From: Pseudomonadota bacterium
GTDB lineage: Bacteria; Pseudomonadota; Gammaproteobacteria; Burkholderiales; Casimicrobiaceae
Assembly (NCBI GenBank): GCA_018241765.1
Contig: JAFEDD010000035.1
Span: forward strand, 9,412-50,897
Direction of reading: 5' to 3'
DNA: 41,486 nucleotides
Below are positions 3,200-28,317 of this stretch, piece after piece (the stretch's first letter is position 1; every line of letters starts with the position of its first letter). Below the pieces are notes generated by a model, which ran no database searches, had not been told where the DNA came from, and saw only the letters and a list, made by a program, of their open reading frames with translations. The position numbers were made by a program, and so were the translations under genes.

Positions 3200-3516
3200 G
3201 TAGCCTCGGGCAACGAAGTGGAATCGAGGGGCGCTACAGCACGCCCATGACCGTGTCGGCGGTTCGCTCGATGGCCGTAGACGGTTGGTCATGGTAGAGA
3301 AGTCGGAGCCGTTTTGCGGCAGCGATGGTCAGAAGGGGATTTTTGTTGGGTTTGGTATCGTGTGTCTCGCCGCTTGCGTTGTAGCGCCATGCGTTCAAGC
3401 AACCCTCCGAGTTCCACTTATCTTTCGGGGTTTGCTGTCTTGACGAATGCGGCCACCTCTCGCACACAAAATTTCTGACTGGCTCCCTCGATTCGACTTC
3501 GTTGCATCGAGGCAAC
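3200..3516 (+). mobile_element. MITE-like non-autonomous element, copy A, with REP-type terminal inverted repeats
   Basis: The left terminus (3200-3229) is GTAG followed by an imperfect palindrome ending AATCGAGG. The right terminus (3486-3516) is the inverted equivalent, CCTCGATTC to ATCGAGGCAAC. Each terminus can itself fold into a hairpin. The subterminal left block (3231-3322) and right block (about 3456-3485, including CACAAAATTTCTGACTGGCTC) recur inverted at 28063-28317. In an 83-base stretch of the left block I count 72 identities to the other copy by hand. The middle (about 3325-3455) is AT-richer and not conserved. No transposase is encoded. The flanks GCAAGC and GCTTGC extend the terminal inverted repeat in this copy. 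Confidence 0.75.
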
Positions 3517-3849
3517 GCTTGCTGAGCAACCGGAACCACCGCCAGATCCCGAGGAGTACGTTTGGTGGTAACTCACGTTCATGGAGGCCAATGATGTTTC
3601 GGATAATGCGTGCGTCGACTGAAACGCGCGCGCTTTCTCGTCGGAAGAGGGATATCACGGACGTGTACCACGTGGTCGTCACCGCGATCGACAGCAAGGG
3701 TCGCATAAGTCACCACTAGCGCTCGAACGAAGCCTGTTCTTCATCGCCACCCCCAGGGTGGTCTACGGGGGTGACAACCACCCTGACGCATGGGACCCAT
3801 CGAAGGCGTCCGCCGCGCGCACGGCGTGCAGTGGGCACGGGCGGCGTCG
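3517..3849. other. Gene-free stretch of the accessory islet
   Basis: No convincing gene lies here. Short open frames cross the stretch on both strands (for example minus-strand frame 3706-3395 and plus-strand frame 3447-3719), but they run into the repeat element and show no recognisable domain or ribosome binding site. The only structure seen is a GC-rich inverted repeat at 3755-3784 plus the second direct-repeat copy from 3797. Confidence 0.5.
3755..3784 (-). terminator. Possible stem-loop downstream of the secreted-protein gene
   Basis: AGGGTGGT at 3755-3762 pairs perfectly with ACCACCCT at 3777-3784 across a 14-base loop, about 65 bases after the stop of the minus-strand gene at 3850. 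An alternative stem, CCACCC (3747-3752) with GGGTGG (3756-3761), competes with it. No T-run follows on the minus strand, so an intrinsic terminator is uncertain. Confidence 0.3.
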
Positions 3850-3860
3850 TCAGTTCGTAG
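3797..3860. repeat. Direct repeat copy 2 (matches 3147-3194)
   Basis: Shares CCCATCGA-GGCG-CCGCCGCG at its left and GCGTCGTCAGTTCGTAG at its right with copy 1, with additional bases between. Its right end overlaps the last four codons of the gene ending at 3850. Together the two copies bracket the MITE-like element at 3200-3516. Confidence 0.6.
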
Positions 3861-4404
3861 GCGTGTCTGCGCGAACGATTCTCAATACGCCGTCGCCGTC
3901 AAAGTCAAACGACAAACCAAATTCAATCTTGTGTTTCGAAACAAAATCCAGCCCGCTCATTATCGTTTGGCCGCCAATATCGTTCCAGTCGACGATTTGC
4001 CAACATGTTGCGCATCCGCTGCGTTTCCTCAATTTGTTGAGCACCGTAATTTTACCGTCGGTACGCTTGATACCCACAGGCAATACACCACGGTAGTTTG
4101 GGACGTCGGGAATGATGACGCGACCCAGCATCGAGCCCGACATCAAGTAGAGCGCGCCATCGGCACCTCGGTACTCGCAGTCAAACGCGGAACGTCGCAA
4201 GTCCTCAACACATTGCTCGGGTTTTTCTTTTATCAATGGTCGAGGTAATGCCGCAAATTGTCCACCAATGACTCCCTTTGCCAGGACCAGTTTTCCCTCA
4301 CGATCCGAAATTTGTTTGCGCATAGATTCCTTTGCGCCAACCGTTACAGTCGCGATAGGAAAGGCAAGAAATATCGCTACGAGCGGTCGAAGCAAGTGGT
4401 TCAT
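3850..4404 (-). CDS. Secreted protein of unknown function, partner of the M23 peptidase
   Basis: 184 residues; I do not recognise the family. The start at 4404 is chosen because it gives a clear signal peptide (MNHLLRPLVAIFLAFPIATV, likely cut after TVGA near residue 24) and has GGAGG six bases upstream. A longer frame to 4503 would bury the signal. The mature part has four cysteines (about residues 65, 76, 131, 134), the last two as CATC, an even number compatible with disulfides, and an acidic DFDGDG stretch near the end. The start overlaps the stop of the upstream M23 peptidase as TGATG, so the two are probably co-translated. The base composition is noticeably less GC-rich than the housekeeping neighbours, which suggests acquisition. 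An immunity role toward the peptidase is inference from layout only. Confidence 0.7.
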   Translation of the reverse strand: MNHLLRPLVAIFLAFPIATVTVGAKESMRKQISDREGKLVLAKGVIGGQFAALPRPLIKEKPEQCVEDLRRSAFDCEYRGADGALYLMSGSMLGRVIIPDVPNYRGVLPVGIKRTDGKITVLNKLRKRSGCATCWQIVDWNDIGGQTIMSGLDFVSKHKIEFGLSFDFDGDGVLRIVRADTPTN

Positions 4405-4919
4405 CAATGCCTCCACCATGCACCCCGAGACGGGACCGCAGGAGGTCTGGAAAGATACGTCCACGGGCTGGCAACTCGTCCACCCATGGAGACCGGAAGA
4501 CATGAGCCAACACGTACTTCGAAATGAAGATGTACCCGTGCAACGCTCGGCGTGTTGCCACTATCGCCCATCAGCGCAACCAATTGGCCTGCTTTTATTG
4601 CTGATCCGGGTGCCACCAAGATCTGCTGCAAGTGCGCATAAACACTGAATATCTTGCCCGCATGCTCGATCGCCAGGATGTTGCCGTAGTCGTTGCTGGG
4701 ATTCGGCTGCAAATTGAATACCACGCCATCGGCTGCTGCAACGATGCCCGCGCCGAGGTGGCCCGAAATATCAATGCCATTGTGTGCGCCGTGTCCACGT
4801 GCGTCGCCGAACTGGCCTCCTCCTTGACGTACTGCTGGAACACGCTCGTTCAGTCGATAGTGCCCCGGGACTGGCCAAGCCCATCCCGTATCCGATTTTC
4901 TGATTGCCGCCTGAGTCAT
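4404..4919 (-). CDS. Small M23-family metallopeptidase without signal peptide
   Basis: 171 residues from ATG 4919, with GGGA about eight bases upstream. The M23 (LytM/lysostaphin-type) zinc site is intact: HNGID gives His46 and Asp50, YAHL gives His96, and HLH gives His130 and His132. Family members are peptidoglycan cross-link or stem-peptide endopeptidases. The protein is almost a bare catalytic domain with a short N-terminus (TGWAWPVPGHYRLNERV) and no signal peptide or membrane segment, which is unusual for an enzyme whose substrate is periplasmic. An upstream extension to 5153 is Arg-rich and implausible. The stop overlaps the start of a secreted protein (TGATG). This could be an effector delivered by a secretion system with its immunity protein, a lysis protein, or a degraded housekeeping peptidase. 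Confidence 0.8.
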   Translation of the reverse strand: MTQAAIRKSDTGWAWPVPGHYRLNERVPAVRQGGGQFGDARGHGAHNGIDISGHLGAGIVAAADGVVFNLQPNPSNDYGNILAIEHAGKIFSVYAHLQQILVAPGSAIKAGQLVALMGDSGNTPSVARVHLHFEVRVGSCLPVSMGGRVASPWTYLSRPPAVPSRGAWWRH

Positions 4920-5177
4920 AAGTATTTCCCAACGAAAGCCATTTGTGTCGGGGCCGCGAAAGCCCTTGCAATACCGTCGCGCCGAGAAGGGCGTGACACG
5001 TTTCGCTCCAGAAAAACGCAGGCGTTCCGCCGTCGGGCGAAACGGCGCGCTGCGATGACCACGACGGGCAAAACCCCGACGGCTCCAAGTGAGGCCGGGA
5101 GTATGTGCCCTTGTCATTGCGTGTTGCCGGTCCGGTCGCGTCTGACCGGCCATGCCAACCGTGAGCGTCCGCTGCTG

Positions 5178-6308
5178 TCACAGCGCGTGCAGCGCGTCTC
5201 CCATGCGTGCCCGGTACCACTCATGGAAGTGCTGCATGCCGTCTTCCATCGGGCTTTGGTAGGGCCCGACCTCGACCTTGCCCTGACGCCACAGTGCGCG
5301 GCGACCACCGTCCATGCGCACGCCAATCTCGTCGTCCTCGACGCAGGTTTCCATGTAGGCCGCCTGCTGCGCGGCGATGAAATCGGGCTCGAACAGCGCA
5401 ACCTCTTCGGCGTAGTAGAACTCGACCACGTTCAAGGTTTTCTGAACGCCCTGCGGCCACAGTGACGAGACGACCAGCGTGTGCGGATACCACTCGACGG
5501 TGATGTTCGGGTAGTAGGTGAGCCAGATGGCACCGCGTTCGGGCGGAACGCCCTGCCGAAAGCGCAGCACTTGGTCATGCCAGCGCTGGTAGGTCGGAGA
5601 GCCGGGCTTGTCGAATGCGCTCGACACGCCGACCGTCTGCACCGAGAAGTCACCGCCCCATTCCCAGGCGAGATCGTCGCAGGTCACGAAGTGTCCGAGC
5701 CCCGGGTGGAACGGGCCGACGTGATAGTCCTCGAGATAGACCTCGACGAAGGTCTTCCAGTTGTAGTCACAATCGTGGGCGATCGCGCGGTCGAACACGT
5801 AGCCGGAAAAGTCGAGCGCCTGCCGCGTCGTCGCCGCAAGCGAGGCGAGATCGACCACCGGGTCGCGCGCGCCATCGAAGAGCATGCCGTTCCACTGGCG
5901 AAGCGGACGGTTCTCGAGGTGCAGTGCGGGATTGCACGGGAAGTGCGGCGCGCCGATCAGTTGCCCCTCGGGCGTATAGGTCCAGCGGTGCACCGGACAG
6001 ACCACGTTGCCGCCGTTCTCGGCCAGTGAGCCGCGCCCGGTCAGCATCAACGCCTGGCGGTGCCGGCAGACGTTGGAGATCAGGTTGATGCCGCGTTCGC
6101 TGCGAACCAATGCCTGACCGTCGTGGCGGTTGGCCAGGACGGCGAAGTCGCCGACCTTGGGCACCATCAGCTCGTGCCCGACGTAGCCGGGGCCGGCAGC
6201 GAACAGCAGTTCGCGCTCGCGGGCGAGCAAGGCCTCGTCGAAATAGGCGGCGGGAGGGAGTTGAGAGACCGGCGCAGACAGTTCTGCGGCGGAAAGCAGG
6301 CGGCTCAT
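5178..6308 (-). CDS. Rieske [2Fe-2S] aromatic-ring-hydroxylating-type oxygenase, alpha subunit
   Basis: 376 residues. The N-terminal Rieske domain has the CxH-CxxH cluster ligands Cys81/His83 (CRH) and Cys104/His107 (CPVH). The C-terminal catalytic domain has the mononuclear iron histidines in EDYHVGPFH (His196, His201), with a likely acidic third ligand in EDDEIGVRMDGG near residue 330. The start at ATG 6308 has AAGGG seven bases upstream; the longer frame to 6434 adds 42 residues without domain content. The family uses electrons from a reductase to hydroxylate or demethylate aromatic or quaternary amine substrates, but no reductase or beta subunit lies nearby, so the substrate cannot be named. 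It is divergent from xseB-ispA-dxs, an arrangement I recall from Burkholderiales genomes. Confidence 0.88.
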   Translation of the reverse strand: MSRLLSAAELSAPVSQLPPAAYFDEALLARERELLFAAGPGYVGHELMVPKVGDFAVLANRHDGQALVRSERGINLISNVCRHRQALMLTGRGSLAENGGNVVCPVHRWTYTPEGQLIGAPHFPCNPALHLENRPLRQWNGMLFDGARDPVVDLASLAATTRQALDFSGYVFDRAIAHDCDYNWKTFVEVYLEDYHVGPFHPGLGHFVTCDDLAWEWGGDFSVQTVGVSSAFDKPGSPTYQRWHDQVLRFRQGVPPERGAIWLTYYPNITVEWYPHTLVVSSLWPQGVQKTLNVVEFYYAEEVALFEPDFIAAQQAAYMETCVEDDEIGVRMDGGRRALWRQGKVEVGPYQSPMEDGMQHFHEWYRARMGDALHAL

Positions 6309-6576
6309 CGCAGACCCTTTCCAGTCACAGGAGTTAACCCAACACAAACCAGGTGCAATTAACGGAAGGCACCCAACCTTTGCTAAGTCAACCTCTGCCC
6401 CGAAGCGAGCGGCGGCCGGAGGCTGCATCGACAAACGCTTTGATTATCCCATGAACGCCTGTGTCAGTCGGCCCGGCGGCCGTCGGCCAGCAGCGGCAAG
6501 ACCCGTAAAATGACCCGTTTGCGCAGACGATGGCGTTGACGATCGCCTCGTCGCGCCCCGAGCTTCACACCGCACC

Positions 6577-6798
6577 ATGGCCAAACCCGTTGCCCCAACC
6601 TTCGAAGCCGCGCTCGGCGAACTGGAAAAGCTGGTCGCCGACCTCGAAGGCGGCCGCCTGCCGCTTGCCGATTCGCTCGCCGCGTACAAGCGCGGCGCCG
6701 AACTGCTGAAGTACGCGCAGGCGCAGCTCGCCCAGGTCGAGGCGGAGGTGCGCGTGCTCGAGGGCGATCTGCTGAAGCCGTTTCAGCCGGAGCCATGA
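6577..6798 (+). CDS. xseB: Exodeoxyribonuclease VII small subunit
   Basis: 73 residues, normal for XseB. The family core is visible: FEAALGELEKLVADLEGG, then LPLADSLAAYKRGAELLK and a coiled-coil-like tail. XseB binds in multiple copies along the large subunit XseA to form exonuclease VII, which degrades single-stranded DNA in the cytoplasm. xseA is not in the window. The stop overlaps the start of ispA by four bases (ATGA), the classical xseB-ispA-dxs operon. Confidence 0.95.
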   Translation: MAKPVAPTFEAALGELEKLVADLEGGRLPLADSLAAYKRGAELLKYAQAQLAQVEAEVRVLEGDLLKPFQPEP

Positions 6799-7694
6799 AC
6801 GACGTCTCGCCGCCGGTGATCACGCTTGCCGACTGGAGCGCGCAACATCGCGCTCGCGTCGAGCGCGTGCTCGAGCAGGCGCTGCCGCGAGGCGAACTCG
6901 CCTCGGGACGACTGTGTGAGGCGATGCGCTACAGCGCGCTCGGCGGCGGCAAGCGACTGCGCGCGCTGCTCGCCTATGCCAGTGCCGAGGCGCTCGGCGC
7001 CGAGCCGGAACTGGCCGATCCTGCCGCCGCCGCGGTCGAGCTGATCCACGCCTATTCGCTGATTCACGACGATCTGCCGTGCATGGACGATGATGCACTG
7101 CGGCGCGGCAAGCCAACGAACCACGTCGCCTTCGGCGAGGCGACGGCGATGCTCGCGGGCGACGCCATGCAACCGCTCGCCTTCGCCGTGCTGCTCGCCG
7201 CGCCGGCAGCGCCGCGCGCCCTGGTGGCGGCAACGGCGGCGCTGGCGAAGGCGTCCGGCGCGAGCGGCATGGCCGGCGGCCAGGCCATCGACCTCGCCAA
7301 CGTGGGCCACGCGATGACCCGCTCGGCGCTCGAGGAGATGCACGCGATGAAGACGGGCGCCATGTTCGAGGCGGCGGTCACGCTGCCGGCACTGCTCGCC
7401 GGCGCCGACGACGCGACGCTCGACGCATTGACGCGCTACGCCCGCGCGGTCGGGCTCGCCTTTCAGGTGCTCGACGACGTCCTCGACGCCACCGCCGACA
7501 CCTCGGCGCTGGGCAAGACGGCGGGCAAGGACGCGGCCGCCGACAAACCGACCTTCGTCACGCTGATGGGCGTGGTGGGCGCACGGGACCATGCCGAACG
7601 CCTGACCGCCACGGCCGTCGCGGCGCTGCCGGGGCATCTGCGTGGCGCGCGACTTGCGGCGCTGGCGCAATCCATGGCCGGACGACAGGCCTGA
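6795..7694 (+). CDS. ispA: Farnesyl diphosphate synthase (polyprenyl synthetase)
   Basis: 299 residues. The enzyme condenses IPP with DMAPP and GPP to give FPP for undecaprenyl phosphate, quinones and heme O. The allylic-substrate motif GGKRLRALL is followed by the first Asp-rich motif [10 protein letters not shown] (Asp92, Asp93, Asp98, Asp99), GQAIDL and [12 protein letters not shown], and the second Asp-rich motif FQVLDDVLD (Asp227, Asp228, Asp231). The short C-terminal region ([15 protein letters not shown]) is typical of the bacterial short-chain type. It lies between xseB (ATGA overlap) and dxs (14-base gap), so FPP synthesis is coexpressed with the first step of the MEP pathway. Confidence 0.95.
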
Positions 7695-7708
7695 ACGGAG
7701 TCGATGCG

Positions 7709-9601
7709 ATGGCGACACTGGAGACGATCAACGAACCGGCGCAGCTGCGCGCACTGCCGCTCGCCGAGCTGAAAGGTGTGTGCGACGAGTTGCGCGGCTT
7801 CGTGCTCGATTCGGTTTCGCGCACCGGCGGCCATCTGTCGTCGAACCTCGGCGTCGTCGAGCTGACGGTCGCGCTGCACTATTGCCTCGACACGCCGCAC
7901 GACCGGCTGGTCTGGGACGTCGGGCACCAGTGCTATCCGCACAAGATACTGACCGGTCGCCGCGAGCGCATGCACACGCTGCGCCAATGGCAGGGGCTGG
8001 CCGGCTTCCCGAAACGCGACGAGAGTGAATACGACACCTTCGGCGTCGCCCATTCCTCGACCAGCATCTCGGCCGCGCTCGGCATGGCCGTCGCCGCGAA
8101 AGCCAAGGGTGAGAGTCGGCGTGTCGTCGCCGTGATCGGCGATGGAGCGATGACTGCCGGCATGGCCTTCGAAGCCTTGAACAACGCCGGCGCGATGGAC
8201 GCCAACCTGCTGGTGATTCTCAACGACAACGAGATGTCGATCAGCGAGCCGGTCGGCGCGCTCAATCACTACCTCGCGCGACTGCTCGCCTCGAAAACCT
8301 ACGGCGCCGTGCGCAATGTCGGCAAGAGCGTGCTGTCGGCGCTGCCGCCGGTTTCGCGGTTCGCGCGGCGCTGGGAAGAACACACCAAGGGCATGGTGCT
8401 GCCCGGCACCATGTGGGAAGAGTTCGGTTTCAACTACATCGGGCCGATCGACGGCCACGACGTCAATCTGCTGGTCGATACCTTGCAGAAGGTGAAGGAT
8501 CGGCGCGGTCCGCAGTTCCTGCACGTCGTCACCCGCAAGGGCGCGGGCTACGAGCGCGCCGAGGACGACCCGATCCTCTACCACGGCGTGCCGAAGTTCG
8601 ACCGCGCCTCGGGCATCCCGACGGTGCCGGCCGCGTTGCCCAAAAAGACCTACTCGGACATCTTCGGCGACTGGCTGTGCGACACCGCAGCCGTCGACGA
8701 CAAGCTGGTCGCCATCACGCCCGCCATGCGCGAAGGCTCGGGCATGGTGCGCTTTTCGAAGGAGTTCCCGGACCGCTACTTCGATGTCGGCATCGCCGAG
8801 CAGCACAGCGTGACCTTTGCCGCCGGACTCGCCTGCGAGGGGCTGAAACCGGTCGTCGCGATCTACTCGACGTTCCTGCAGCGCGCCTACGATCAACTGG
8901 TGCACGACGTCGTACTGCAAAACCTGCCGGTGGTGTTTGCCATCGATCGCGCCGGGCTGGTCGGAGCCGACGGACCAACCCATGCCGGGTCCTTCGACGT
9001 CGCCTTCATGCGCTGCCTGCCGAACCTGACGATCATGAGCGCGACGAGCGCCGCCGAGTGCCGGGCCATGTTGTCGCACGGTGTGGCGCTGGCGGCGCCC
9101 GCCGCCGTGCGCTATCCGCGCGGCGCGGCGCAGGGCGCGGCCGACGCGGTGATTCCGGCCATCGAGCAGGGGCGCGGCATCGTCGTGCGCAAGGGGGGCC
9201 ACACCGGCGCGCCGCGCGTGGCGATCCTTGCCTGGGGCAGTCTGCTGCATCCGGCGCTGGCCGTTGGCGAGAAGCTCGACGCGACGGTCGTCAACATGCG
9301 CTTCGTGAAGCCGCTCGATGAGGCGCTGGTGCGCGAACTCGCGCGACACCATGACGTTGTGGTCACCCTCGAAGAAGCGGCTGTTCACGGTGGCGCCGGC
9401 AGCGCCGTGGCGGAATCGCTGAGCGCGGCGGGCATCGAGGCGCGACTGCTGTTGCTCGGGCTGCCTGACCGCTTCATCGATCAGGGCGATCCGGCGCTGT
9501 TGCTCGCCGCCGCCGGACTCGACGCGAGCGGCATCGAACGCAGCATCCGCGAGGCGCTGGCAACGGCCGCATCGGGCCGCACCACCCGCGCCGCGGCCTG
9601 A
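7709..9601 (+). CDS. dxs: 1-deoxy-D-xylulose-5-phosphate synthase
   Basis: 630 residues, usual length. It condenses pyruvate and glyceraldehyde 3-phosphate with thiamine diphosphate, the entry step of the MEP isoprenoid pathway. Motifs: GHLSSNLG (41-48, with catalytic His), [18 protein letters not shown], the ThDP motif from GDG at 144-146 to [10 protein letters not shown], the linker [20 protein letters not shown], and the transketolase pyrimidine domain [17 protein letters not shown] with [18 protein letters not shown] 7709 has GGAG upstream. It is the third gene of xseB-ispA-dxs and converges on the gene ending at 9614 with only 12 bases between. Confidence 0.97.
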
Positions 9602-9613
9602 GCGTCGCCCCGG

Positions 9614-10441
9614 TCAGCGCGCGTCGGCGAGCGCCGACACGCCGCGGCGCAACGCGGCCAGATAGTCGAGCCCGAGCGTCGCGCGGCTGCCATACCAACT
9701 CGTCATTTCGCCGTCGATCAGCGTGATCGGGCCAGCCGGATGCTCGGTCGCGATCAACGGTGCGACGTGTCGCTCATCGAAGGCGTAGGGTTCGCTCGAA
9801 AGCAGCACGCGATCGGCCTGCTGCCACAGCGCGTCGCCCGCGACGAGTTCCGGATAGCGCCGCTCGCTCTGCATCGGCAGCGTCTGCCAGCCCACCGTGG
9901 CGAGCATGGCGCTGACGTAGGTGTCGCGCGCCACCGTCATCCACGGGTCCTTCCAGATCAGGTAGAGCACGCTCTCGCGCGGCAGCGCAGCGGCGACCGC
10001 GCGGGCGCGCTGCAAGGCCTGCGCGAACGCGGCGGCCTGCGCCGCGGCGGCGTCAGCGACGGCGAAGACGTGCCCGAACAGCGCGAACAACGCTACGTTG
10101 TCCTCGGGCGTCAGCGGATGGGTGACGACGACGTGCGGCACGACGCGGCGCAAATGCTCGACCGTGTCGCGCCGGTTCTCGTCGATGTTGACGATGACGT
10201 GCGTGGGTTCGGTGGCCAGCAGTTTGGCGACGTTGACGTCCTTCGTGCCGCCCACCTTCGGCACCTCGCGCACGGCGGGGTCGGGGTGAATGCAAAACCC
10301 GGTGCGGGCGACGACGCGGTCACCGAGCCCGAGCGCAAACAGCGTCTCGGTCAGCGACGGCACGAGACTGGCGATACGCGCTCGCTCGGGCGAGTGAAAA
10401 CGCCGGTGGCGCGTACCGATCGCGTCGGGCAGGTGCGTCAT
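9614..10441 (-). CDS. Helical-backbone metal receptor / BtuF-like binding protein without signal peptide
   Basis: 275 residues. The fold family is recognisable from RIASLVPSLTETLFALGLGDRVVARTGFC and from VGGTKDVNVAKLLATEPTHVI, the hallmark of BtuF/FhuD-like class III binding proteins (cobalamin or siderophore receptors). The C-terminal half has SVLYLIWKDPWMTVARDTY and the closing helix LGLDYLAALRRG. No signal peptide or lipobox is visible at the N-terminus (MTHLPDAIGTRHRRFH), whereas transport binding proteins are exported. No ABC permease is adjacent. It follows dsbA by 28 bases on the same strand. It may act in the cytoplasm or may be misannotated at its start; no earlier in-frame start with a signal sequence was found. 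Confidence 0.8.
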   Translation of the reverse strand: MTHLPDAIGTRHRRFHSPERARIASLVPSLTETLFALGLGDRVVARTGFCIHPDPAVREVPKVGGTKDVNVAKLLATEPTHVIVNIDENRRDTVEHLRRVVPHVVVTHPLTPEDNVALFALFGHVFAVADAAAAQAAAFAQALQRARAVAAALPRESVLYLIWKDPWMTVARDTYVSAMLATVGWQTLPMQSERRYPELVAGDALWQQADRVLLSSEPYAFDERHVAPLIATEHPAGPITLIDGEMTSWYGSRATLGLDYLAALRRGVSALADAR

Positions 10442-10469
10442 GCCACACGCACCTCGATGTGCGGCGCGC

Positions 10470-13560: not shown

Positions 13561-13680
13561 ACAACTTTGCGCCAAAACCCGCATCCATGACAGGCTTCGC
13601 GCATGTTTTTGCCAAAAGTCGAGATTTGGCGATTTTGCGTCGCAAGCCCGTCATGGACGCCATTTGCGTGGAAAGTTGTT
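13561..13680. repeat. Palindromic intergenic repeat, family 2, copy A
   Basis: The left arm starts ACAACTTTGCGCC and contains CCGCATCCATGACAGGCTT (to about 13603). The right arm (13636-13680) contains AAGCCCGTCATGGACGCCAT and ends GAAAGTTGTT, so the two arms are imperfect inverted repeats of about 42 bases. A nested pair, GCCAAA (13611-13616) with TTTGGC (13625-13630), could extend the cruciform. A second full copy is at 29618-29734 and a partial arm is at 27791-27834. Its place between the gatB stop and the argS start suggests it may end or insulate transcription. Confidence 0.75.
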
Positions 13681-13713
13681 GGCACTTCCCCGCCCCCGGC
13701 GCGGCGCCGGCGG

Positions 13714-19810: not shown

Positions 19811-21730
19811 ATGATGCATTCGGAGCTGCGCAACCACGACCAGGAGCTGTTTTGGTATCGGCGCCGTCTCGCCGTGGCCGCGGTCGTCGTCATCGTCGCC
19901 TTCGGCGCGCTGTTCGGCCGCTTCTTCTACCTGCAAGTCATCCAGCGCGAGCACTTCGCGCGCATGGCCGAGGCCAATCGCATCGACGTGCAGCCGGAGG
20001 CGCCCAACCGCGGCATCATCACCGACCGCAACGGCATCGTGCTGGCATCGAACTACTCCGCCTACACGCTCGAGCTCAACCCTCAGAAAATCGCCGATCT
20101 CGACGCCGCCATCGATGAAATCAGCCGCATCGTCGAGGTGACCGCGCGTGATCGGCGCCGCTTCAAGCGTTTGTACGAGGAGTTTCGCAGCAACGACAGC
20201 CTGCCGCTGAAGTCGCGACTGACCGATGACGAGGTCGCCCGCATCGCGGCCAACCGCTACCGGCTGCCGGGCGTGGAGATCAAGGCGCGGCTCTTTCGGC
20301 AATATCCGTTCGGCGAGCTCGCCTCGCATGTAATCGGCTACATCGGGCGCATCAGCCAGAAGGACAAGGAGCGCATCGACCAACACGGTCTGAGTGACAA
20401 CTACCGCGGCTCGGACTACATCGGCAAGGTCGGCATCGAACTCTCCTACGAGAAAGAGCTGCACGGCAGCGCCGGCGCCAACGAGGTCGAGGTCGACGCC
20501 TCGCGTCGCGTGATCCGCACGCTGTCACGCAAACCGCCGGTCACCGGCAACAACCTGCAACTCTCGATCGACATCCGCCTGCAAAAGATCGCCGAAGACG
20601 CCTTCGGCAGCAAACGTGGTGCGCTGGTGGCGATCGAGCCGGCCACCGGTGACGTTCTCGCCTTCGTCAGCCGTCCCGGCTACGACCCGAACCTGTTCGT
20701 CGACGGCATCGACCCGCAGAACTGGGACGCGCTGAACACCTCCGAGGACAAACCCCTGTTGAACCGACCGTTGCAAGGCGCCTATCCACCGGGCTCCACC
20801 TACAAGCCGTTCATGGCGCTGATGGCGCAAGAGCTCGGCATCCGCACGGCGCAGCAGGCGATCCACGACCCAGGCTTCTTCCGCCTCGGCGGCGGCTACT
20901 GGCGCGACGACAAGGCGGGCGGACACGGCACCGTCGATCTCGTGAAGTCGATCGTCGTATCGTGCGACACGTACTACTACCAAGTCGCCGCCGAAGCCGA
21001 CATCGATGCCTGGTCGGCCTTCATGAAGCCGTTCGGTTTCGGGCAGAAGACCGGCATCGACATCGAAGGAGAACTGCCGGGCCTGCTGCCGACGCGCGAA
21101 TGGAAGGCGAAGCGCTTCCCGAAAGACCCGAAGCTGCACGTCGGCGATCAGGTATCGCTGGGCATCGGGCAGGGCTTCAACACCTTCACACCGCTGCAGA
21201 TGGCCTACGCCACGGCGATCCTCGCCAACCGCGGCGTCGCCTTCAAGCCTCATGTGGTGAAGCGCGTGCAGGACGCGCGCACCGGCGAATCGCGTCTGAC
21301 GCAACCGGCGCCGATCTACACCATCGCACTGAAGAGCGAGCACATCGACGCCGTCATGCGAGGTCTCGCCGGCGTCGTCAAGGAGGGCACCGGGCGCGTC
21401 GCCTTCCAGAGCGCCAAGTACACGAGCGGCGGCAAGACCGGCACGGCCCAGGTGTTCAGCCTGCGCGGCGGCGAATACCGCGCCTCGCAGGTGCACGAGC
21501 GCATGCGCGACCACGCGTGGTACATCGCGCTGGCGCCGCTCGAAAAACCCACCATCGCGCTGGTCGCTTTCGTCGAAAATGGCGGCTTTGGTGCCGAGGC
21601 GGCCGCGCCGATCGCCCGCAAGGTCATGGACGCCCATTTCGATCCCGAACTTCTGGCCGCAGCGCTGAAGCGCGAGCCGACGCAGCTCGCGGCCGCCCGC
21701 CCCGACGCCGCCACGAGGCGCGCACGATGA
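19811..21730 (+). CDS. mrdA: Penicillin-binding protein 2 (elongasome transpeptidase)
   Basis: 639 residues. A cytoplasmic stub and one membrane helix (LAVAAVVVIVAFGALFGRFF) precede the pedestal domain (NRGIITDRNGIVLASNYSAY) and the transpeptidase domain. The active-site motifs are intact: STYK with nucleophile Ser329, SCD at 384-386 in place of SxN as usual for PBP2, and KTGTAQ from Lys542. It cross-links peptidoglycan made by RodA during side-wall growth. The start is ATG 19811 or the next codon; GGAG lies a few bases upstream. The stop overlaps rodA as ATGA. Confidence 0.96.
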   Translation: MMHSELRNHDQELFWYRRRLAVAAVVVIVAFGALFGRFFYLQVIQREHFARMAEANRIDVQPEAPNRGIITDRNGIVLASNYSAYTLELNPQKIADLDAAIDEISRIVEVTARDRRRFKRLYEEFRSNDSLPLKSRLTDDEVARIAANRYRLPGVEIKARLFRQYPFGELASHVIGYIGRISQKDKERIDQHGLSDNYRGSDYIGKVGIELSYEKELHGSAGANEVEVDASRRVIRTLSRKPPVTGNNLQLSIDIRLQKIAEDAFGSKRGALVAIEPATGDVLAFVSRPGYDPNLFVDGIDPQNWDALNTSEDKPLLNRPLQGAYPPGSTYKPFMALMAQELGIRTAQQAIHDPGFFRLGGGYWRDDKAGGHGTVDLVKSIVVSCDTYYYQVAAEADIDAWSAFMKPFGFGQKTGIDIEGELPGLLPTREWKAKRFPKDPKLHVGDQVSLGIGQGFNTFTPLQMAYATAILANRGVAFKPHVVKRVQDARTGESRLTQPAPIYTIALKSEHIDAVMRGLAGVVKEGTGRVAFQSAKYTSGGKTGTAQVFSLRGGEYRASQVHERMRDHAWYIALAPLEKPTIALVAFVENGGFGAEAAAPIARKVMDAHFDPELLAAALKREPTQLAAARPDAATRRAR

Positions 21731-22830
21731 TGCAGCAGCTCTGGGCGAAGTTCACCGATCACCTCGATCCCTTCCTGTTCGCCATCGTCACCGCGATCAC
21801 GGCGCTCGGCTTGCTCGTGCTGTTCAGCGCGGCCAATGAGGCGACGGCGCGCGTAGTGTCGCAGTCGCAGAAAGTGGCCATCGCCGTCGTGCTGATGATC
21901 GGCATCGCGCACCTGTCGCCGCAGTTCATCGCCCGCTTTGCGGTGCCGCTGTACGCGCTCGGCATCGTGCTGCTGCTCGGTGTTGCCTTCGGCGGCGAGG
22001 TCGTCAAGGGCGCACGCCGCTGGTTGAAGATTCCCGGTCTCGGCAACGTGCAACCGTCGGAAATCATGAAGATCGCGCTGCCGCTGATTCTCGCCTGGTA
22101 TTTCGAGCGCCACGAAGGCAGCATGAACTGGCGCAATTTCGCGGTTGCCTCGGCGCTCGTGCTGGTGCCCTTCGGGCTCGTCGTGCGCCAACCCGACCTC
22201 GGCACCGCATTGCTGATCGGCGCCTGCGGCTTCTACGTGCTCTATCTCGCCGGACTCGACTGGCGCATCATCGTCGGCGGCGCGCTGCTCGGTGCACTCG
22301 GCTTCTGGGCGGCGTGGGAATTCAACTGGCTGCACGACTATCAGAAAGAGCGCATCCTGACCGTGATCGATCCGACGCGCGATGCCCAGGACGCTGGCTG
22401 GCACACCACGCAGGCGGCGATCGCGATCGGCTCGGGTGGACTCCTTGGCAAGGGCTGGCTGAACGGCACGCAAACGCACCTCGAGTTCCTGCCCGAGAAG
22501 CACACCGACTTCATCTTCGCGGTCTACGGTGAGGAGTTCGGTCTGCTCGGCGGTATCGTGCTGCTCGTGCTGTATCTGCTGATGATCGGGCGCTGCTTCG
22601 TCATTGCCGCCAACGCCTCGACGCTGTTCGGCCGCCTGATGGCGGGCGCGCTGACGCTGATGTTCTTCACCTACGCCTTCGTCAACATGGGCATGGTGAG
22701 CGGCATGCTGCCGGTGGTCGGCGTACCGCTGCCGTTCATGAGTTTCGGTGGCACGGCGCTGATGACGTTGTTCATTGCGGTCGGTATCCTGATGAGTGTG
22801 CAGACGCATCGCAAATTGGTGAACTCATGA
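21727..22830 (+). CDS. rodA: RodA, SEDS-family peptidoglycan glycosyltransferase
   Basis: 367 residues, normal for RodA. It is a multi-pass membrane protein with SEDS hallmarks: GGEVVKGARRWLKIPGLGNVQPSEIMKI, VVRQPDLGTALLI, GWLNGTQTHLEFLPEKHTDF, FAVYGEEFGLLGG and GVPLPFMSFGGTALM. It polymerises lipid II with PBP2. The start overlaps the mrdA stop (ATGA at 21727-21730), which fixes it although the frame stays open far upstream. Its own stop overlaps the rlpA start in the same way. Confidence 0.96.
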   Translation: MMQQLWAKFTDHLDPFLFAIVTAITALGLLVLFSAANEATARVVSQSQKVAIAVVLMIGIAHLSPQFIARFAVPLYALGIVLLLGVAFGGEVVKGARRWLKIPGLGNVQPSEIMKIALPLILAWYFERHEGSMNWRNFAVASALVLVPFGLVVRQPDLGTALLIGACGFYVLYLAGLDWRIIVGGALLGALGFWAAWEFNWLHDYQKERILTVIDPTRDAQDAGWHTTQAAIAIGSGGLLGKGWLNGTQTHLEFLPEKHTDFIFAVYGEEFGLLGGIVLLVLYLLMIGRCFVIAANASTLFGRLMAGALTLMFFTYAFVNMGMVSGMLPVVGVPLPFMSFGGTALMTLFIAVGILMSVQTHRKLVNS

Positions 22831-23795
22831 TGACCCGACGACTGACTCCGGCCAACCGCTGCACGACGGCGCTGCTGCTCACGTTCGCTCTCGCGCTCGC
22901 TGGCTGCGCAAGCAATGCACCGCCGAGCGCCGGCCGCAGCACGGCAGGCACGAGCGGCGCTTCGCCCAAGGCGGGCGCGACGGGGCCGGCGCCGAGCGCT
23001 CGCCCCGGCGCCTATTACAAGGACGACGGCCCGGCCGCGAACGTGCCCGAGGGGCTCGATCGCGTGCCCGACGCGGCGCCGCGCGTCGAGACGCTGCACC
23101 GCTTCGCCAACCGCCCGTACAACGTGTTCGGTGTCGACTACGCGCCGCTCTCCTCGCTCGCGCCGCTGCACCAGCGCGGCGTGGCGTCGTGGTATGGCCG
23201 CAAGTTTCATGGCCAGAAGACGGCCATCGGCGAGCCCTACGACATGTTCGCGATGACGGCCGCGCACCCGACCGCACCGCTGCCGAGCTTCGCGCGGGTG
23301 ACCGCCGTGGCGAGCGGGCGCAGCGTCATCGTGCGGCTCAACGATCGCGGCCCGTTCCACGCCGGCCGCATCATCGATCTGTCCTACGCGGCGGCGCACC
23401 GCCTCGGCATCGCCCAGGGCGGCAGCGGTGAAGTCGATTTCGAACTGCTGCTGCCGCCGTTCGCTGCTTCGACGAGTGTCGCCGCGGCGCCGACCCCACC
23501 GCCCGCGGCCGCGCTGGTGGAGCCGCCGCCGCTGCCCGCCGGCACGACCGTCGACGCCGCGCGCGAGGCTTTTTACGTGCAACTCGGCGCCTTCGGAAAC
23601 TTTGCCAACGCCGAAACGTTCCAACAGCGCATGAATTCCGAGCTCGCGACCGCCCCGCGCGTGCAACAGATCGATGCGCTGTACCGCGTCCGCCTCGGCC
23701 CGTTCGCCACCCGCGAAGCGGCCATCGCCGCACGCGACCGCGCCCAGTCCATCCTTGCCACCTCGCTCCCCATCGTCAGCGGCCCATCCCGATGA
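22827..23795 (+). CDS. rlpA: RlpA septal-ring lipoprotein, lytic transglycosylase-like, with C-terminal SPOR domain
   Basis: 322 residues. It has a lipoprotein signal with lipobox LAGC (Cys27), a low-complexity Ala/Gly/Pro linker, and a double-psi beta-barrel RlpA domain at about residues 117-205 (GVASWYGRKFHGQKTAIGE, FARVTAVASGRSVIVRLNDRGPF, RIIDLSYAAAHRLG). A second Pro/Ala linker leads to a SPOR domain at about 244-320 (FYVQLGAFGNFANAETFQQR to YRVRLGPFATREAA). RlpA cleaves stem-less glycan at the septum and the SPOR domain targets it there. ATGA overlaps at both ends join it to rodA and tolB. Confidence 0.95.
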   Translation: MMTRRLTPANRCTTALLLTFALALAGCASNAPPSAGRSTAGTSGASPKAGATGPAPSARPGAYYKDDGPAANVPEGLDRVPDAAPRVETLHRFANRPYNVFGVDYAPLSSLAPLHQRGVASWYGRKFHGQKTAIGEPYDMFAMTAAHPTAPLPSFARVTAVASGRSVIVRLNDRGPFHAGRIIDLSYAAAHRLGIAQGGSGEVDFELLLPPFAASTSVAAAPTPPPAAALVEPPPLPAGTTVDAAREAFYVQLGAFGNFANAETFQQRMNSELATAPRVQQIDALYRVRLGPFATREAAIAARDRAQSILATSLPIVSGPSR

Positions 23796-25063
23796 AATTC
23801 CTGTTGCACCGCCTTCTGCCCGCCGTCATCGCCTTCGTCGGCGGCGTCGCCCATGCCCAGCTCACCATCGACATCGTGGGTGTCGGCGCGCAGCAGATTC
23901 CGGTCGCGGTCACCGCGTTCGCCGGCGCCGATGCCAGCGCACAACAACTCTCCAGCGTCGTCGAGGCCGACCTCGGCCGCAGCGGCTTGCTGAAGACGGT
24001 CAACGCGAGCGGGCTTTCGCGCGGCGTCGACCTCGCCGCCGTGCCGTTTGCCGAGCTGCGCAGCCGTGGCGCCGACGCGGTCGTCGTCGGCAGCGTGCAG
24101 CCCAGTGGCAACGGACAGTACAGCGTGAGCTTCCGCCTGCTCGACGTGCCGAAGCAGGCGCAACTCACGGGCCTCGTGTTCAACGTCGGCGCGAAGGATC
24201 TGCGCGCCACGGCGCACCGCATCGCCGACATCGTCTACGAGCAGTTGACTGGCGAGAAGGGCGTGTTCAGCACGCGGCTGGCGTACGTTGCGAAGTCCCC
24301 CGGCCGCTTCCAGTTGATCGTCGCCGACAGCGACGGTGCCAACGCCATCGCGGTCGTCAACTCGGTCGAACCGATCATCTCGCCGGCCTGGTCGCCCGAC
24401 GGCACCCGCCTCGCCTACGTCTCGTTCGAGGGCCGCAAGCCGAGCGTGTATCTGCAAAACGTGGCCAGCGGCGAGCGCGCGCTGCTGGTGCGGCTGCCCG
24501 GCAACCAGTCGGCCCCGGCCTGGTCGCCCGACGGGGGGCGGCTCGTGTTCGCGTCGTCGCATCTGGGCGGCACCCAACTCTTCGTCGTCAATGCCGATGG
24601 CAGCAATCTGCGGCGTCTGACGCAGAGCGGCGCCATCGACACGACGCCGAACTGGGCCGTCGACGGCCGCATCTACTTCATGAGCGACCGCGGCGGTTCG
24701 CCGCAGATCTATCGCATGGCGGCCGAGGGCGGCGGCGCCGAGCGCGTGACCTTCGAGGGCAGCTACAACGCGAACCCGCGTGTCGCCGTCGATGGCAAGA
24801 GCATGGTGTTCATGCGCCGCGATGGTGGCCGCGAAGTGCTCGCAGTGCAGGATTTCGCGTCGCGTCAGGTGCAGGTGCTGACGTCAGGCCCGGTCGATGA
24901 ATCGCCCTCGTTCGCGCCCAATGGCAAGCTGATCGCCTATGCCTCGGTGTATAACGGCAGAGGCGTACTGGCTACGGTGTCCTCGGATGGCCGCGTCAAG
25001 CAGCGCCTCGGTGCGAGCAACGCGGATGTGCGCGAACCGGCCTGGGGACCGCTGCCACGATGA
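23792..25063 (+). CDS. tolB: Tol-Pal system beta-propeller protein TolB
   Basis: 423 residues. A signal peptide (LLPAVIAFVGGVAHA) precedes the N-terminal alpha/beta domain (QLTIDIVGVGAQQIPVAV) and a six-bladed beta-propeller with repeated TolB blades (SPAWSPDGTRLAYVS, APAWSPDGGRLVFASS, TPNWAVDGRIYFMSDRGG, NPRVAVDGKSMVFMR, SPSFAPNGKLIAYASVYNGR). TolB is periplasmic, binds Pal and is released by TolA, driving outer-membrane constriction. Its start overlaps the rlpA stop by four bases (23792-23795). In most proteobacteria tolB follows tolQRA; those genes are absent here. Confidence 0.96.
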   Translation: MKFLLHRLLPAVIAFVGGVAHAQLTIDIVGVGAQQIPVAVTAFAGADASAQQLSSVVEADLGRSGLLKTVNASGLSRGVDLAAVPFAELRSRGADAVVVGSVQPSGNGQYSVSFRLLDVPKQAQLTGLVFNVGAKDLRATAHRIADIVYEQLTGEKGVFSTRLAYVAKSPGRFQLIVADSDGANAIAVVNSVEPIISPAWSPDGTRLAYVSFEGRKPSVYLQNVASGERALLVRLPGNQSAPAWSPDGGRLVFASSHLGGTQLFVVNADGSNLRRLTQSGAIDTTPNWAVDGRIYFMSDRGGSPQIYRMAAEGGGAERVTFEGSYNANPRVAVDGKSMVFMRRDGGREVLAVQDFASRQVQVLTSGPVDESPSFAPNGKLIAYASVYNGRGVLATVSSDGRVKQRLGASNADVREPAWGPLPR

Positions 25064-25164
25064 ATCATCATGACCGTCGGACGAGCGCATGAGGCGTTCG
25101 TGCGGCGGCCGGATGTCACGCAATGCCGACCGCTTCGAGCCGGCGACTTTTGAAAGGGATGGCC

Positions 25165-25743
25165 ATGAAACGACTCTGGACTGTGCTTCTCGCAACCGCC
25201 GCCGCGGTGACGCTCGCGGCGTGCTCGTCGACGCCGGAGCAGGCGGCACCAGTCACCGATGCCAACGCGACGGGCAGCACCAGCACGAGCAGCGGCACTG
25301 CCGGCAGTGGCGCCTCGACCAGCGGCACCGGCAATCAAAGCTCGACCAGCGGCAGCAACCTGCAGGGCGCGAGCGGCGCCAACGCGTTGCGGGATCCGCG
25401 CAGCCCGTTGTCACGGCGCGAAATCTTCTACGACTTCGACAGCTATGTCGTGAAAGATGAATACAAGCCGCTGCTCGAAGCGCATGCCGCCTATCTCAAA
25501 GGCAACCGCAACGCGCGCGTGATCGTCGAGGGCAACACCGATGAGCGCGGCAGTCGCGAGTACAACCTCGCGCTCGGGCAAAAGCGCGCCGAGAGCGTGA
25601 AGCAGGTGTTGACGCTGCTCGGCGTCAATCCGGCGCAGATCGAGACGGTCAGCTTCGGCGAGGAAAAGCCGCGCAACACGGCGTCCAACGAAGCGGCGTG
25701 GGCCGAGAACCGTCGCTGCGATCTGCGCTACGCCGGAGAGTGA
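25165..25743 (+). CDS. pal: Peptidoglycan-associated lipoprotein Pal
   Basis: 192 residues from ATG 25165, chosen because AAGGG lies six bases upstream and it gives a compact lipoprotein signal with lipobox LAAC (Cys20). A Ser/Thr/Gly/Ala-rich linker precedes the OmpA-like domain (IFYDFDSYVVKDEYKPLLEA, VEGNTDERGSREYNLALGQ, RAESVKQVLTLLGV). The Asp of NTDERGS and the Arg in KRAES, which bind the diaminopimelate stem, are present. Pal anchors the outer membrane to peptidoglycan and binds TolB. It lies about 100 bases after tolB and three before cpoB. Confidence 0.95.
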   Translation: MKRLWTVLLATAAAVTLAACSSTPEQAAPVTDANATGSTSTSSGTAGSGASTSGTGNQSSTSGSNLQGASGANALRDPRSPLSRREIFYDFDSYVVKDEYKPLLEAHAAYLKGNRNARVIVEGNTDERGSREYNLALGQKRAESVKQVLTLLGVNPAQIETVSFGEEKPRNTASNEAAWAENRRCDLRYAGE

Positions 25744-25746
25744 TCG

Positions 25747-26655
25747 ATGTCGCGCCTGTCCCCGTCGTCGTTGCGACCGAGTCGCGCCCCCCTGCGCCAT
25801 GGGCTCGGCGCCGCCGTGCTCGCGCTCGGCTTCATGACCGGCGCGCAGGCCGGGCTCTTCGATGACGAGGAGGCGCGCCAGCAGATCCTGCAACTGCGCA
25901 CGCAGCTCGACCAGACCCAGCGCTCGCTCGGCGAGCGCATCGGCGAGCTCGAAGCGCAGGCGCGCAACCGCAGCATCATCGATCTGTTCAACCAGGTCGA
26001 AGCCCTGAAGGCAGACTTTGCGAAGCTGCGCGGGCAGATCGAGATGTTGCAGAACGAGCTCGACAACAGCCAGAAGCGCCAGCGCGATCTCTACGTCGAT
26101 CTCGATGGCCGGCTGCGCAAGATCGAGACACAGCTCGCAGCCAGCGCCACGGCGCAGGCTGCGCCCGGCAGCGCACCCTCCGGCACGGTAGCGCCCGCGC
26201 CGGCCACCGGAGCACCCGCGGCAGCCGAGCCGCCGCGCGGCTTGCCGTCGGCGCCGGCCGTCACGCCACCGGCGATCGATCCCGTGGCCGAGCAGCGCAG
26301 CTACGAAGCGGGCCTCGATCTCTTCCGCAGCGGCCGCTTCAGCGAAGCGATCGCGAGCTTCCAGAGCTTTCTGCGCACGTTCAGCCGCAGCACCCTCGCG
26401 CCTTCGGCGCAATACTGGATCGGCAACGCGCTGTACGCCACACGCGACTATCGCGGCGCCATCACGGCGCAGCGGCAGTTGCTCGCGCAGTACCCGGACA
26501 GCGCGAAAGCGCCCGACGCGCTGCTCAACATCGCCACCGCGCAATCCGACCTCGGCGATCTGCAGGGCGCACGCAGCAGCCTTCAGGAAGTCATCGCCAA
26601 ATACCCGAACTCCGAGGCAGCCACCAAGGCGCGGCAGCGACTCGGCGGGCGCTGA
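25747..26655 (+). CDS. cpoB: Cell division coordinator CpoB (YbgF)
   Basis: 302 residues. A signal peptide (AAVLALGFMTGAQAG) precedes an N-terminal trimerising coiled coil of about residues 40-135, a Pro/Ala-rich linker, and C-terminal TPR repeats (YEAGLDLFRSGRFSEAIASF, YWIGNALYATRDYRGAITAQ, LLNIATAQSDLGDLQGARSS, YPNSEAATKARQRL). CpoB coordinates PBP1B activity with Tol-driven constriction. It sits immediately after pal, the normal order, and nine bases before the likely GTG start of mutY. Confidence 0.95.
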   Translation: MSRLSPSSLRPSRAPLRHGLGAAVLALGFMTGAQAGLFDDEEARQQILQLRTQLDQTQRSLGERIGELEAQARNRSIIDLFNQVEALKADFAKLRGQIEMLQNELDNSQKRQRDLYVDLDGRLRKIETQLAASATAQAAPGSAPSGTVAPAPATGAPAAAEPPRGLPSAPAVTPPAIDPVAEQRSYEAGLDLFRSGRFSEAIASFQSFLRTFSRSTLAPSAQYWIGNALYATRDYRGAITAQRQLLAQYPDSAKAPDALLNIATAQSDLGDLQGARSSLQEVIAKYPNSEAATKARQRLGGR

Positions 26656-26663
26656 CGCCGGCG

Positions 26664-27776
26664 GTGCACGGCATCGCCCACGGCGCGGCCACGGTCCCGG
26701 CGGCCGCAACCTCCTTCGCCGGGCGCATCGTCGCCTGGCAACGCGCGCACGGTCGCCACGACCTGCCGTGGCAACGCACGCGCGACCCCTACCGGCTGTG
26801 GCTCGCCGAGATCATGTTGCAGCAGACGCAGGTGGCAACGGTGCGGCCGTACTACGAGCGATTTCTGGCGCGTTTTCCGGACGTCCCGACGCTCGCGGCG
26901 GCCTCCGAAGAGGAGGTGTTGACCCTTTGGGCTGGACTTGGCTACTACCGCCGCGCCCGGAATCTGCACGCCGCCGCGCGCGCGGTGGTGGCCGAACACG
27001 GGGGGCAGTTTCCGCGCTCGGTCGATGCGCTCGCCGCATTGCCGGGCATCGGCCGCAGCACGGCCGCCGCCATCGCCGCCTTCGCGTGGGATGTCGTGGC
27101 TCCGATCCTCGATGGCAACGTGAAACGGGTGCTCGCTCGCCATGCCGCCGTCGAAGCCGTCGCCGGCAGCGCAGCCGCCGAGCGCACGCTGTGGCGCCTC
27201 GCAGGCGAGCGCCTGCCGCAAAGCAGCGCCGATATGGTCGCCTATACGCAGGGCTCGATGGACCTCGGCGCCACGGTTTGCACGCGCGGCGCGCCCGATT
27301 GCGCGCGTTGCCCGGTCGCCGACGATTGCGTGGCGCGGGCGACGGGTCGGAGCGCCGAGCTGCCTCGCGCACGGACAAGGCCGGCGCTGACCGAGCGCCG
27401 CGGCCGCTTCCTCCTGCTGACCCACGGCGCCGACGTGGCGATGGTCAAACGACCGGGACAGGGCGTCTGGGGCGCGCTGTGGTGCCTGCCGGAACTGCCG
27501 CTCGATGCCTCGGACGCTGAAATCGACGCCATCGCCGCGCGCTTCGGCGCACGCGCGCTCGGCGCAAGACAGACGCTCGCCGACGTGCGCCATCGCTTCA
27601 CGCACTTTCAGTTGACCTTCGCCACCGAGCGCATCGCCTGCGCCCGCCGCGAGCCGCACGCGGCGGAGCCGGGCGTGCTGTGGCTTGCTCTCGACGCCGC
27701 GGCCGAAGCGGCGGTGCCCAAGCCCATCGCGCAACTGCTGCGCCGCGGCGCGGCCGATGAGACGTCGGCGAGCTGA
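26664..27776 (+). CDS. mutY: A/G-specific adenine DNA glycosylase MutY
   Basis: 370 residues from GTG 26664. It removes adenine mispaired with 8-oxoguanine. Motifs: LPWQRTRDPYRLWLAEIMLQ with the catalytic Glu, the helix-hairpin-helix LAALPGIGRSTAAAIAAFAW, ILDGNVKRVLAR with the catalytic Asp, and the [4Fe-4S] ligands in C-x6-C-x2-C-x5-C spacing (CTRGAPDCARCPVADDC). A C-terminal NUDIX-like recognition domain follows (RFLLLTHGADVAMVKRPGQG, VWGALWCLPE). The GTG start is uncertain; the conserved core begins about 35 residues in. It is the last gene of the plus-strand run before the second accessory islet. Confidence 0.94.
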   Translation: MHGIAHGAATVPAAATSFAGRIVAWQRAHGRHDLPWQRTRDPYRLWLAEIMLQQTQVATVRPYYERFLARFPDVPTLAAASEEEVLTLWAGLGYYRRARNLHAAARAVVAEHGGQFPRSVDALAALPGIGRSTAAAIAAFAWDVVAPILDGNVKRVLARHAAVEAVAGSAAAERTLWRLAGERLPQSSADMVAYTQGSMDLGATVCTRGAPDCARCPVADDCVARATGRSAELPRARTRPALTERRGRFLLLTHGADVAMVKRPGQGVWGALWCLPELPLDASDAEIDAIAARFGARALGARQTLADVRHRFTHFQLTFATERIACARREPHAAEPGVLWLALDAAAEAAVPKPIAQLLRRGAADETSAS

Positions 27777-28062
27777 TTCCGCACGCGATACAGCTTGATG
27801 CTGGAAGCCGCATCCATAACGGGCTTGGAGCGCGAATTGCGGGCAAAGTCGATTTGAAATCACGAAAAATCACCTCTCCGTGCTCACAAACAAAATTACA
27901 CTTGATAATCAACGTGATAGAGACGTATCAATGAGCATCGAGAGCGTGCGAATGACGCGCAAATGGCGTCAAACCGTAAAAGTTGCTCCGCAAGCCGCAT
28001 CAATCAACGAAAACAGCCAATTCACTCATGGCGAACACGACCCCGCCATCCGCGCGCCGACC
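27777..28062. other. Gene-free stretch left of MITE-like copy B
   Basis: No gene is supported. The composition drops to AT-richer sequence around 27840-27960. A partial arm of the family-2 palindrome is seen at 27791-27834, and a vaguely similar piece (AAAAGTTGCTCCGCAAGCCGCATC) near 27977-28000. Short open frames here have no domain signal. Confidence 0.45.
27791..27834 (+). repeat. Partial arm of palindromic repeat family 2
   Basis: CTGGAAGCCGCATCCATAAC followed by GGGCTTGGAGCG resembles the left arm of the copies at 13561 and 29618 (AAGCCGCATCCAxxAxxGGCTT). A matching right arm could not be found downstream, so this is probably a decayed copy. Confidence 0.45.
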
Positions 28063-28317
28063 GTAGCCTCGATGCAACGAAGTGGAATCGAGGGAGCCGG
28101 TCAGAAATTTTGGGTACGAGAAGTGGCCCACTCACGAAGACAGAAAGCCCACTACAGAACGCCGAAGCCGCCAACGATCCCTTTTTTCCAGTCCCTTTCG
28201 CCGAACGGCGCCGACTTCTCCACCATGACCAATCGTCTGCGGCCGTCGAGCAAGCCGCCGACGCGGTCATGGGCGCGCCGCAGCGCCCTCGATTCCACTT
28301 CGTTGCATCGAGGCTAC
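28063..28317 (-). mobile_element. MITE-like non-autonomous element, copy B, with matched terminal inverted repeats
   Basis: In the plus-strand view the termini are 28063-28093 (GTAGCCTCGATGC to AATCGAGG) and 28287-28317 (CCTCGATTCC to GAGGCTAC). They are exact inverted repeats of each other over at least 31 bases, and each can fold on itself. Relative to copy A at 3200-3516 the element is inverted. Beside its left terminus (in element orientation) 72 of 83 bases match copy A by hand count, and the right subterminal block with CAAAATTTCTGACCGGCTC also matches. The middle differs in sequence and is shorter, giving 255 against 317 bases. No transposase is encoded. Confidence 0.78.

Follow-up and report, generated by a model that had tools for sequence, protein, structure and literature searches.

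The window analyzed here, a 41,486-nucleotide stretch of a Pseudomonadota genome (assembly GCA_018241765.1, contig JAFEDD010000035.1, positions 9,412 to 50,897), contains two copies of a repeat bounded by outward-facing repetitive extragenic palindromes (REPs) of the GTAG type. Sequence comparison confirms the positions and mutually inverted orientations of the two stretches, 3200-3516 (copy A, 317 bp) and 28063-28317 (copy B, 255 bp), as well as the GTAG-hairpin termini that the original prediction assigned to them. The copies belong to a family of non-coding repeats that is, as judged from genome searches, restricted to one lineage. With a probability of roughly 0.68, we interpret this family as a giant REPIN (REP doublet forming hairpins) or bacterial interspersed mosaic element (BIME), that is, REP-bounded non-autonomous DNA mobilized by a REP-associated tyrosine transposase (RAYT, or TnpA-REP).

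The 83-base block that begins at 3231 in copy A shares 72/83 identities with copy B; transitions account for 10 of the 11 differences and 7 of the 11 fall in one codon phase, as counted before. The termini of copy B, reported as exact inverted repeats over at least 31 bases, are exact across 32. The middles of the copies were described as unrelated, but alignment reveals that they are homologous, copy B being ~62 bp shorter and the sequence around the gap more diverged. Copy A carries slightly degenerate REPs, the left lacking one base and the right reading CAAC instead of CTAC, and its match to the family interior (E 5.5e-96) is not a chance likeness. The features of the window copies, including a partial third copy and a spacer module (S), are as follows.

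3193..3523, + strand: copy A, element with outer ends AGCAAGC / GCTTGCT; interior 91% to the family consensus over 244 bp
3200..3229, + strand: left REP of copy A, minus one base; 93.5% match to the REP
3230..3382, + strand: left interior block of copy A (24-copy alignment); matched in 1/64 genomes of the taxonomic family, its own
3383..3460, + strand: copy A relic of an IS3-family element end, 78 bp to the tip; placed via an ungapped match
3461..3485, + strand: copy A linker from IS tip to right REP (copy alignment)
3486..3516, - strand: right REP of copy A, CAAC for CTAC; 93.5% match
3031..3085, - strand: partial copy with linker and exact REP, including 26 bp of the right block; no IS relic and no left block
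28063..28317, - strand: copy B, element of 255 bp with ~62 bp internal loss (alignment)
28287..28317, - strand: left REP of copy B, exact (REP match)
28154..28286, - strand: left interior block of copy B; 80% to consensus 1-120
28118..28143, - strand: copy B remnant of the IS3-end relic, bounds approximate; consensus 192-244 matches 28143-28092 at 79%
28063..28093, + strand: right REP of copy B, exact (REP match)
27785..28060, - strand: spacer module S by copy B, resembling the A-S half of a 1-kb composite; 74% to the C72 spacer, E 1.1e-56

Module S lies between copy B and a mutY-like gene (26664-27776, HhH-GPD and NUDIX domains). On its other side copy B is flanked by a convergent reading frame, 28349-29296, for which a Pfam search returned no match.

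A multi-copy family with a captured insertion sequence end

The host assembly comprises 3.24 Mb in 76 contigs and is 90% complete. Within it, copy B as query yields 185 matches and the REP-free interior at least 36. At least 24 family copies retain at least 100 bp of interior; they are distributed over 12 contigs and 15 loci, a count that may be low, as 40 of 51 candidates were scored and loci were grouped by hand. These numbers and the unrelated flanks exclude the possibility that only two copies exist through one segmental duplication, and they bear out the proposal of a multi-copy non-autonomous element beyond the size of a simple REPIN. The intact element spans ~318 bp and consists of two outward REPs (GTAGCCTCGATGCAACGAAGTGGAATCGAGG) enclosing ~255 bp of non-coding interior. 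The REP pair is inverted with GTAG outside across the aligned copies, as in a REPIN, but the unit is not short: 16 aligned, complete copies measure 308-327 bp from REP to REP, two measure 249 bp and one 255 bp. In the two 249-bp copies, both at C10 (L059 2515-2764 and 3819-4069; C10:84514-86068), an inverted segment of the copy's own left end takes the place of the right half, which suggests template switching at a hairpin. Truncation, Ns or the lack of a clean left REP affects five of the 24 alignment rows, copy A among them. The outer ends read AGCAAGY-GTAG / CTAC-GCTTGCT or close variants in most copies, though copy B matches poorly.

The codon-phase bias had been taken as a weak hint of a coding relic, an idea that we abandon: of 20 copies, 8 keep the best frame open, and the phase excess gives a permutation p of 0.107 (21 rows). 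At the Rfam gathering score no structured RNA is matched in the window, and in L055 and L056 the search reports a single thiamine pyrophosphate (TPP) riboswitch, which lies outside the element.

The right part of the interior represents the final 78 bp, tip included, of one end of an IS3-family insertion sequence (IS). Positions 140-217 of the interior consensus share 70/78 bases (90%) with the end of a 1461-bp IS that is present in five copies in the relative G005 and has kin in G012. Its transposase is assigned to the IS3 family (NF033516, E 6.8e-66), and all five G005 copies bear 3-bp target duplications. Homology to the element ends exactly at the IS tip, and this junction is common to all copies that retain the region; the IS3 end was therefore probably captured once, before the family spread. 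The element itself is no member of the IS3 family, having one IS end only, which is not at the element termini, and neither the second end nor a transposase. In the host genome, a broken IS3 copy adjoins one composite unit at C10.

The element also occurs in a larger arrangement. Two elements and a 377-bp spacer S form a composite of 1015-1023 bp, complete examples of which are found at C72, C2 (twice) and C10 with mutual identities of 88-91%. Their boundaries coincide with the outermost REPs plus ~7 bp; beyond these, the 60-bp flanks share 12-23/60 bases in pairwise comparison, which is near chance. Additional composites are a tandem copy at C72 and a truncated one at C6. The C72 unit is bordered by 271 bp duplicated from the end of the upstream gene, and a 943-bp stretch is repeated along with it. 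Spacer S is a repeat in its own right (22 copies aligned), occurring also in half-units (window copy B, C22, C24 and C20) and apart from elements. A tree of the interiors, weak at 10 of its 21 inner branches, groups 12 of the 13 single elements, with weak support. Three of the five composite A elements form a starred clade beside the single elements and the other two lie among the B elements; some exchange between copies is therefore likely.

We note several further features. A second palindromic repeat family (approximately CAACTTTTCGCTGAAAGCCGCATCCA..GGGCTTCG, second arm inverted) is present in the window at 13562-13682, 29618-29720 and 27791-27829. It has no relation to the REP; the arm is similar to the tail of spacer S, for which the genome contains many short matches. 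L056 4012-5052 (C2) encodes a HigB-like toxin and a helix-turn-helix partner, and composite units have landed within it. The C2 copies adjoin sequences that we take to resemble integron attC sites; nothing similar is seen at the other composites, and attC as a target of the element was dropped. Suspected transposase fragments at the junctions of C2 have no Pfam match and are not claimed.

The REP ends are far more uniform than what they enclose. The exact 31-mer occurs 74 times in the host genome, with no occurrence of the backward-read control pattern, and among the 17 genomes of the genus it is found elsewhere three times in G005, six times in G013 and not at all in the other 14. According to block probes, 26 of the 74 face the left block, 24 the right block and 24 neither, although two of the latter do face a short left-block piece. 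Because these 24 show no detected inner block, single REPs appear to be placed as well; the suspicion that the termini occur independently of the inner blocks thus holds in part. Mean pairwise identity is 100% for the left REP and 98.7% for the right, against 77.5-79.6% for the interior (19 of 24 rows); the REP values gain from the omission of five rows, including copy A with its damaged REPs. Across the four composites, variable columns number 1/124 in the gap-free REP and 196/905 elsewhere (Fisher p 3.4e-11, with non-independent sites). As in REPINs, the spacer is less conserved than the REPs. Two explanations remain for this pattern. Either diverged lineages, each requiring an intact REP, have moved recently, or the REPs have undergone gene conversion.

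Among the genomes searched, the interior apart from its IS3 part is confined to the host. The whole-element query matches 12 of 40 genomes, the host included, and among the matches listed those in other genomes extend over at most ~60 bp and cover essentially the REP end. The interior query matches 4 of the 17 genomes of the genus; in the three besides the host the match is confined to the IS3 part or its vicinity, and in one of these it is weak. The left interior alone is matched in one of 64 genomes of the taxonomic family, the host (at most 13 candidates scored per genome). The plasmid records searched contain no match to relatives of the element. A 21-base interior pattern sought in named genomes, where the host genome and its near kin may be absent, returned three unrelated records that were judged to be chance.

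A candidate RAYT and its REP variant

A Pfam search of the host genome identifies two Y1 transposases, both with other REP types. In the genus as a whole, the REP class of the element occurs at only one of 28 Pfam-found RAYT loci, in G013. A protein search with this G013 RAYT identifies a third host gene, C55:85391-85909, which encodes a 173-residue protein with 80% identity. The C55 protein aligns with E. coli TnpA-REP (4er8) with an E of 1.4e-48, has H60, H62 and Y128 in place and contains no internal stop, so that an HUH motif and tyrosine appear intact, though the Pfam Y1_Tnp match is below cut-off (E 0.051). Y128 superimposes in the alignment onto Y115, the catalytic residue of the E. coli enzyme (PMC8266576).

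REPs of the fold class of the element lie on both sides of the C55 gene. Among 19 of 20 RAYT-search loci inspected, three RAYTs with at least 80% identity (G013, G005 and G000) are bounded by such REPs; at the remaining inspected loci they are seen only at the neighboring gene of the same G013 locus and at one G001 locus, several hundred bases off. The expectation of a RAYT flanked by the same hairpin is thus borne out for the fold class and not for the exact sequence. The RAYT-type REP (GTAGCCTCGATGCAGCGMAGCGGAATCGAGG) has four exact occurrences in the host genome, all at C55, and agrees with the element REP at 28/31 bases; a stem pair (A-T against G-C) accounts for two of the differences and a loop base for the third. 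The two REPs have identical predicted minimum-energy folds, stem mismatches included. For E. coli TnpA-REP, a stem bulge is described as required and the role of the loop as structural and non-specific (PMC8266576).

A further connection is found at C44 (L064 2144-3087), where seven tandem REPINs of 85-86 bp join the exact element REP to RAYT-type REPs, five of the latter being identical to one REP present twice at C55. At the level of sequence these REPINs tie the element REP to the RAYT class, which falls short of proof that the C55 enzyme acts on the element. That it acts on this REP variant is our inference, and the element is probably moved by a transposase whose gene lies at another place in the host genome.

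Two further RAYT-like genes, in L075 (C24) and L076 (C6), lie amid dense GTAG arrays of their own (GTAGGCGACGGC.. and GTAGGAGCGGCT..), and the C24 arrays contain open frames that encode a repeated peptide. Apart from these loci, window positions 38703-40600 hold tandem paralogs, ~74% identical at a spacing of 1007 bp, each of which contains a phosphonate-binding domain. In the program-made list of open reading frames, an in-frame fusion gives the first paralog a long N-terminal extension.

Proposed mobilization and its alternatives

In the model that we favor, two outward GTAG hairpins enclose ~255 bp of non-coding DNA with the once-captured IS3 end. TnpA-REP, an HUH/Tyr nuclease, would recognize the REP hairpins on single-stranded DNA, cleave close to the REP and then either move the DNA between paired REPs or copy it anew. 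Such a process could cover both the 318-bp element and the 1-kb unit of two elements and S; it would pass through single-stranded DNA and would seem to be recent or ongoing. Tandem arrays could form via repeated local copying or homologous recombination, and a rolling-circle-like local process has been proposed for BIME arrays (PMC2817692).

At nine element or composite sites read by eye, no direct repeat that would represent a target duplication is present outside the ends, and the cleavage sites are not deducible from the flanks. Enzymes of the RAYT kind are expected to leave no target duplication, and the nine sites are consistent with one. The two copies that were folded, copy B and one at C35, are each predicted to form a single hairpin, as REPINs do, with a stability well above that of shuffled sequences.

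Several observations weigh against this model. The long terminal inverted repeats contribute heavily to the folding z-scores against shuffles (copy B, -8.7; C35 copy, -7.1). The element is 2-3 times the length of most described REP dimers. The exact element REP, with its 74 copies, lies beside no RAYT found, and the RAYT-type REP is confined to C55; since the assembly is incomplete, it may lack another RAYT. Neither empty sites nor excision products nor activity have been seen, and relatives were not searched for empty sites. Finally, the repetition of the C72 unit together with the duplicated gene end is an outcome that recombination can also produce.

The last point leads to the strongest alternative, in which the copies spread without a RAYT, dispersed and homogenized by homologous recombination, segmental duplication and gene conversion among the many identical REPs. 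The C72 arrays that include flanking gene DNA, the near-identical REPs beside diverging neighbors, as under gene conversion, and the partial intermixing of A and B elements in the tree all point in this direction. We nevertheless regard it as unlikely, because the breakpoints of the four composites are their outermost REPs with unrelated flanks, and the block-free exact REPs indicate that single REPs are placed too. Considerably less probable is a host-maintained structure, such as a terminator or a gyrase or IHF site, selected for the REP hairpin with mobility incidental or past. Copy B does lie downstream of the mutY-like gene between converging reading frames, REP columns are almost invariant, and gyrase binding by BIMEs and a role of REPs in termination are described from other bacteria (PMC2817692); yet the copies are clustered at few loci, one by an IS3 remnant and one near the HigB-like toxin gene, and 14 of the 17 genomes of the genus lack the exact REP. 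Least probable is a classical miniature inverted-repeat transposable element, whose terminal inverted repeats would serve a DDE transposase, since the fitting size, long terminal inverted repeats and lack of coding capacity are offset by the missing target duplications, by which the original label lacks support in its strict sense, by an IS homology limited to the internal IS3 end (no search was made for a DDE element with these ends), and by the 3-bp duplications that the IS3 element in question makes at five G005 sites.

Within the RAYT model, a more specific and tentative possibility is that TnpA-REP mobilizes cargo well beyond a REPIN. The 1-kb four-REP composite, with the IS3 end and the unrelated repeat S as foreign DNA, would then spread as one REP-bounded unit, in effect an HUH/REP composite transposon. 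Its cargo would drift, and ongoing RAYT action or gene conversion would keep its REPs near-identical across the genome.

Comparison with known systems

The spread of REPs has been called poorly understood, and TnpA-REP a domesticated transposase (PMC8266576). A long, alignable foreign cargo offers a handle on this process, making cargo trees, REP-delimited breakpoints and the substitution rates of REP versus cargo measurable. It also lets the size limit and substrate rules of a RAYT be tested, and the family exemplifies an IS end that was captured and then multiplied by another system. IS elements that insert into REPs are known (PMC1525189). Among the open-access papers covered by our search terms, judged by title and the opening of the abstract, we found no REP-bounded family this large with an internal IS end. 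REPINs and BIMEs with captured rayt ends are already known, and by its sequence the present family appears to be an oversized REPIN relative carrying a captured IS end.

With the REPINs of Bertels and Rainey (2011, PMC3116915) the element shares the inverted REP pair, the spacer less conserved than the REPs, the predicted single-strand hairpin, the relation to a RAYT and tandem clusters with flanking DNA. It differs in size, with ~318 bp and a 1-kb composite against 71 bp between invariant 16-mers in the type case, in its conserved interior with an IS3 relic, and in having an exact REP other than that which flanks the RAYT. The BIMEs of Nunvar (2010, PMC2817692) likewise feature alternating REPs, arrays, hybrid REP types and inter-REP capture of foreign DNA; there the captured segments are rayt 3' ends, whereas here an IS3 end is captured in a segment that recurs at 15 loci. 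The GTAG REP dimers of HH type (Di Nocera 2013, PMC3733652) also have GTAG termini outside and usually conserved spacers, but these are mostly 20-100 bp as described there, compared with ~255 bp here. For the IS3-family element of G005, the likeness is limited to 78 bp from one of the IS ends, reaching exactly to the tip, that the element carries within it.

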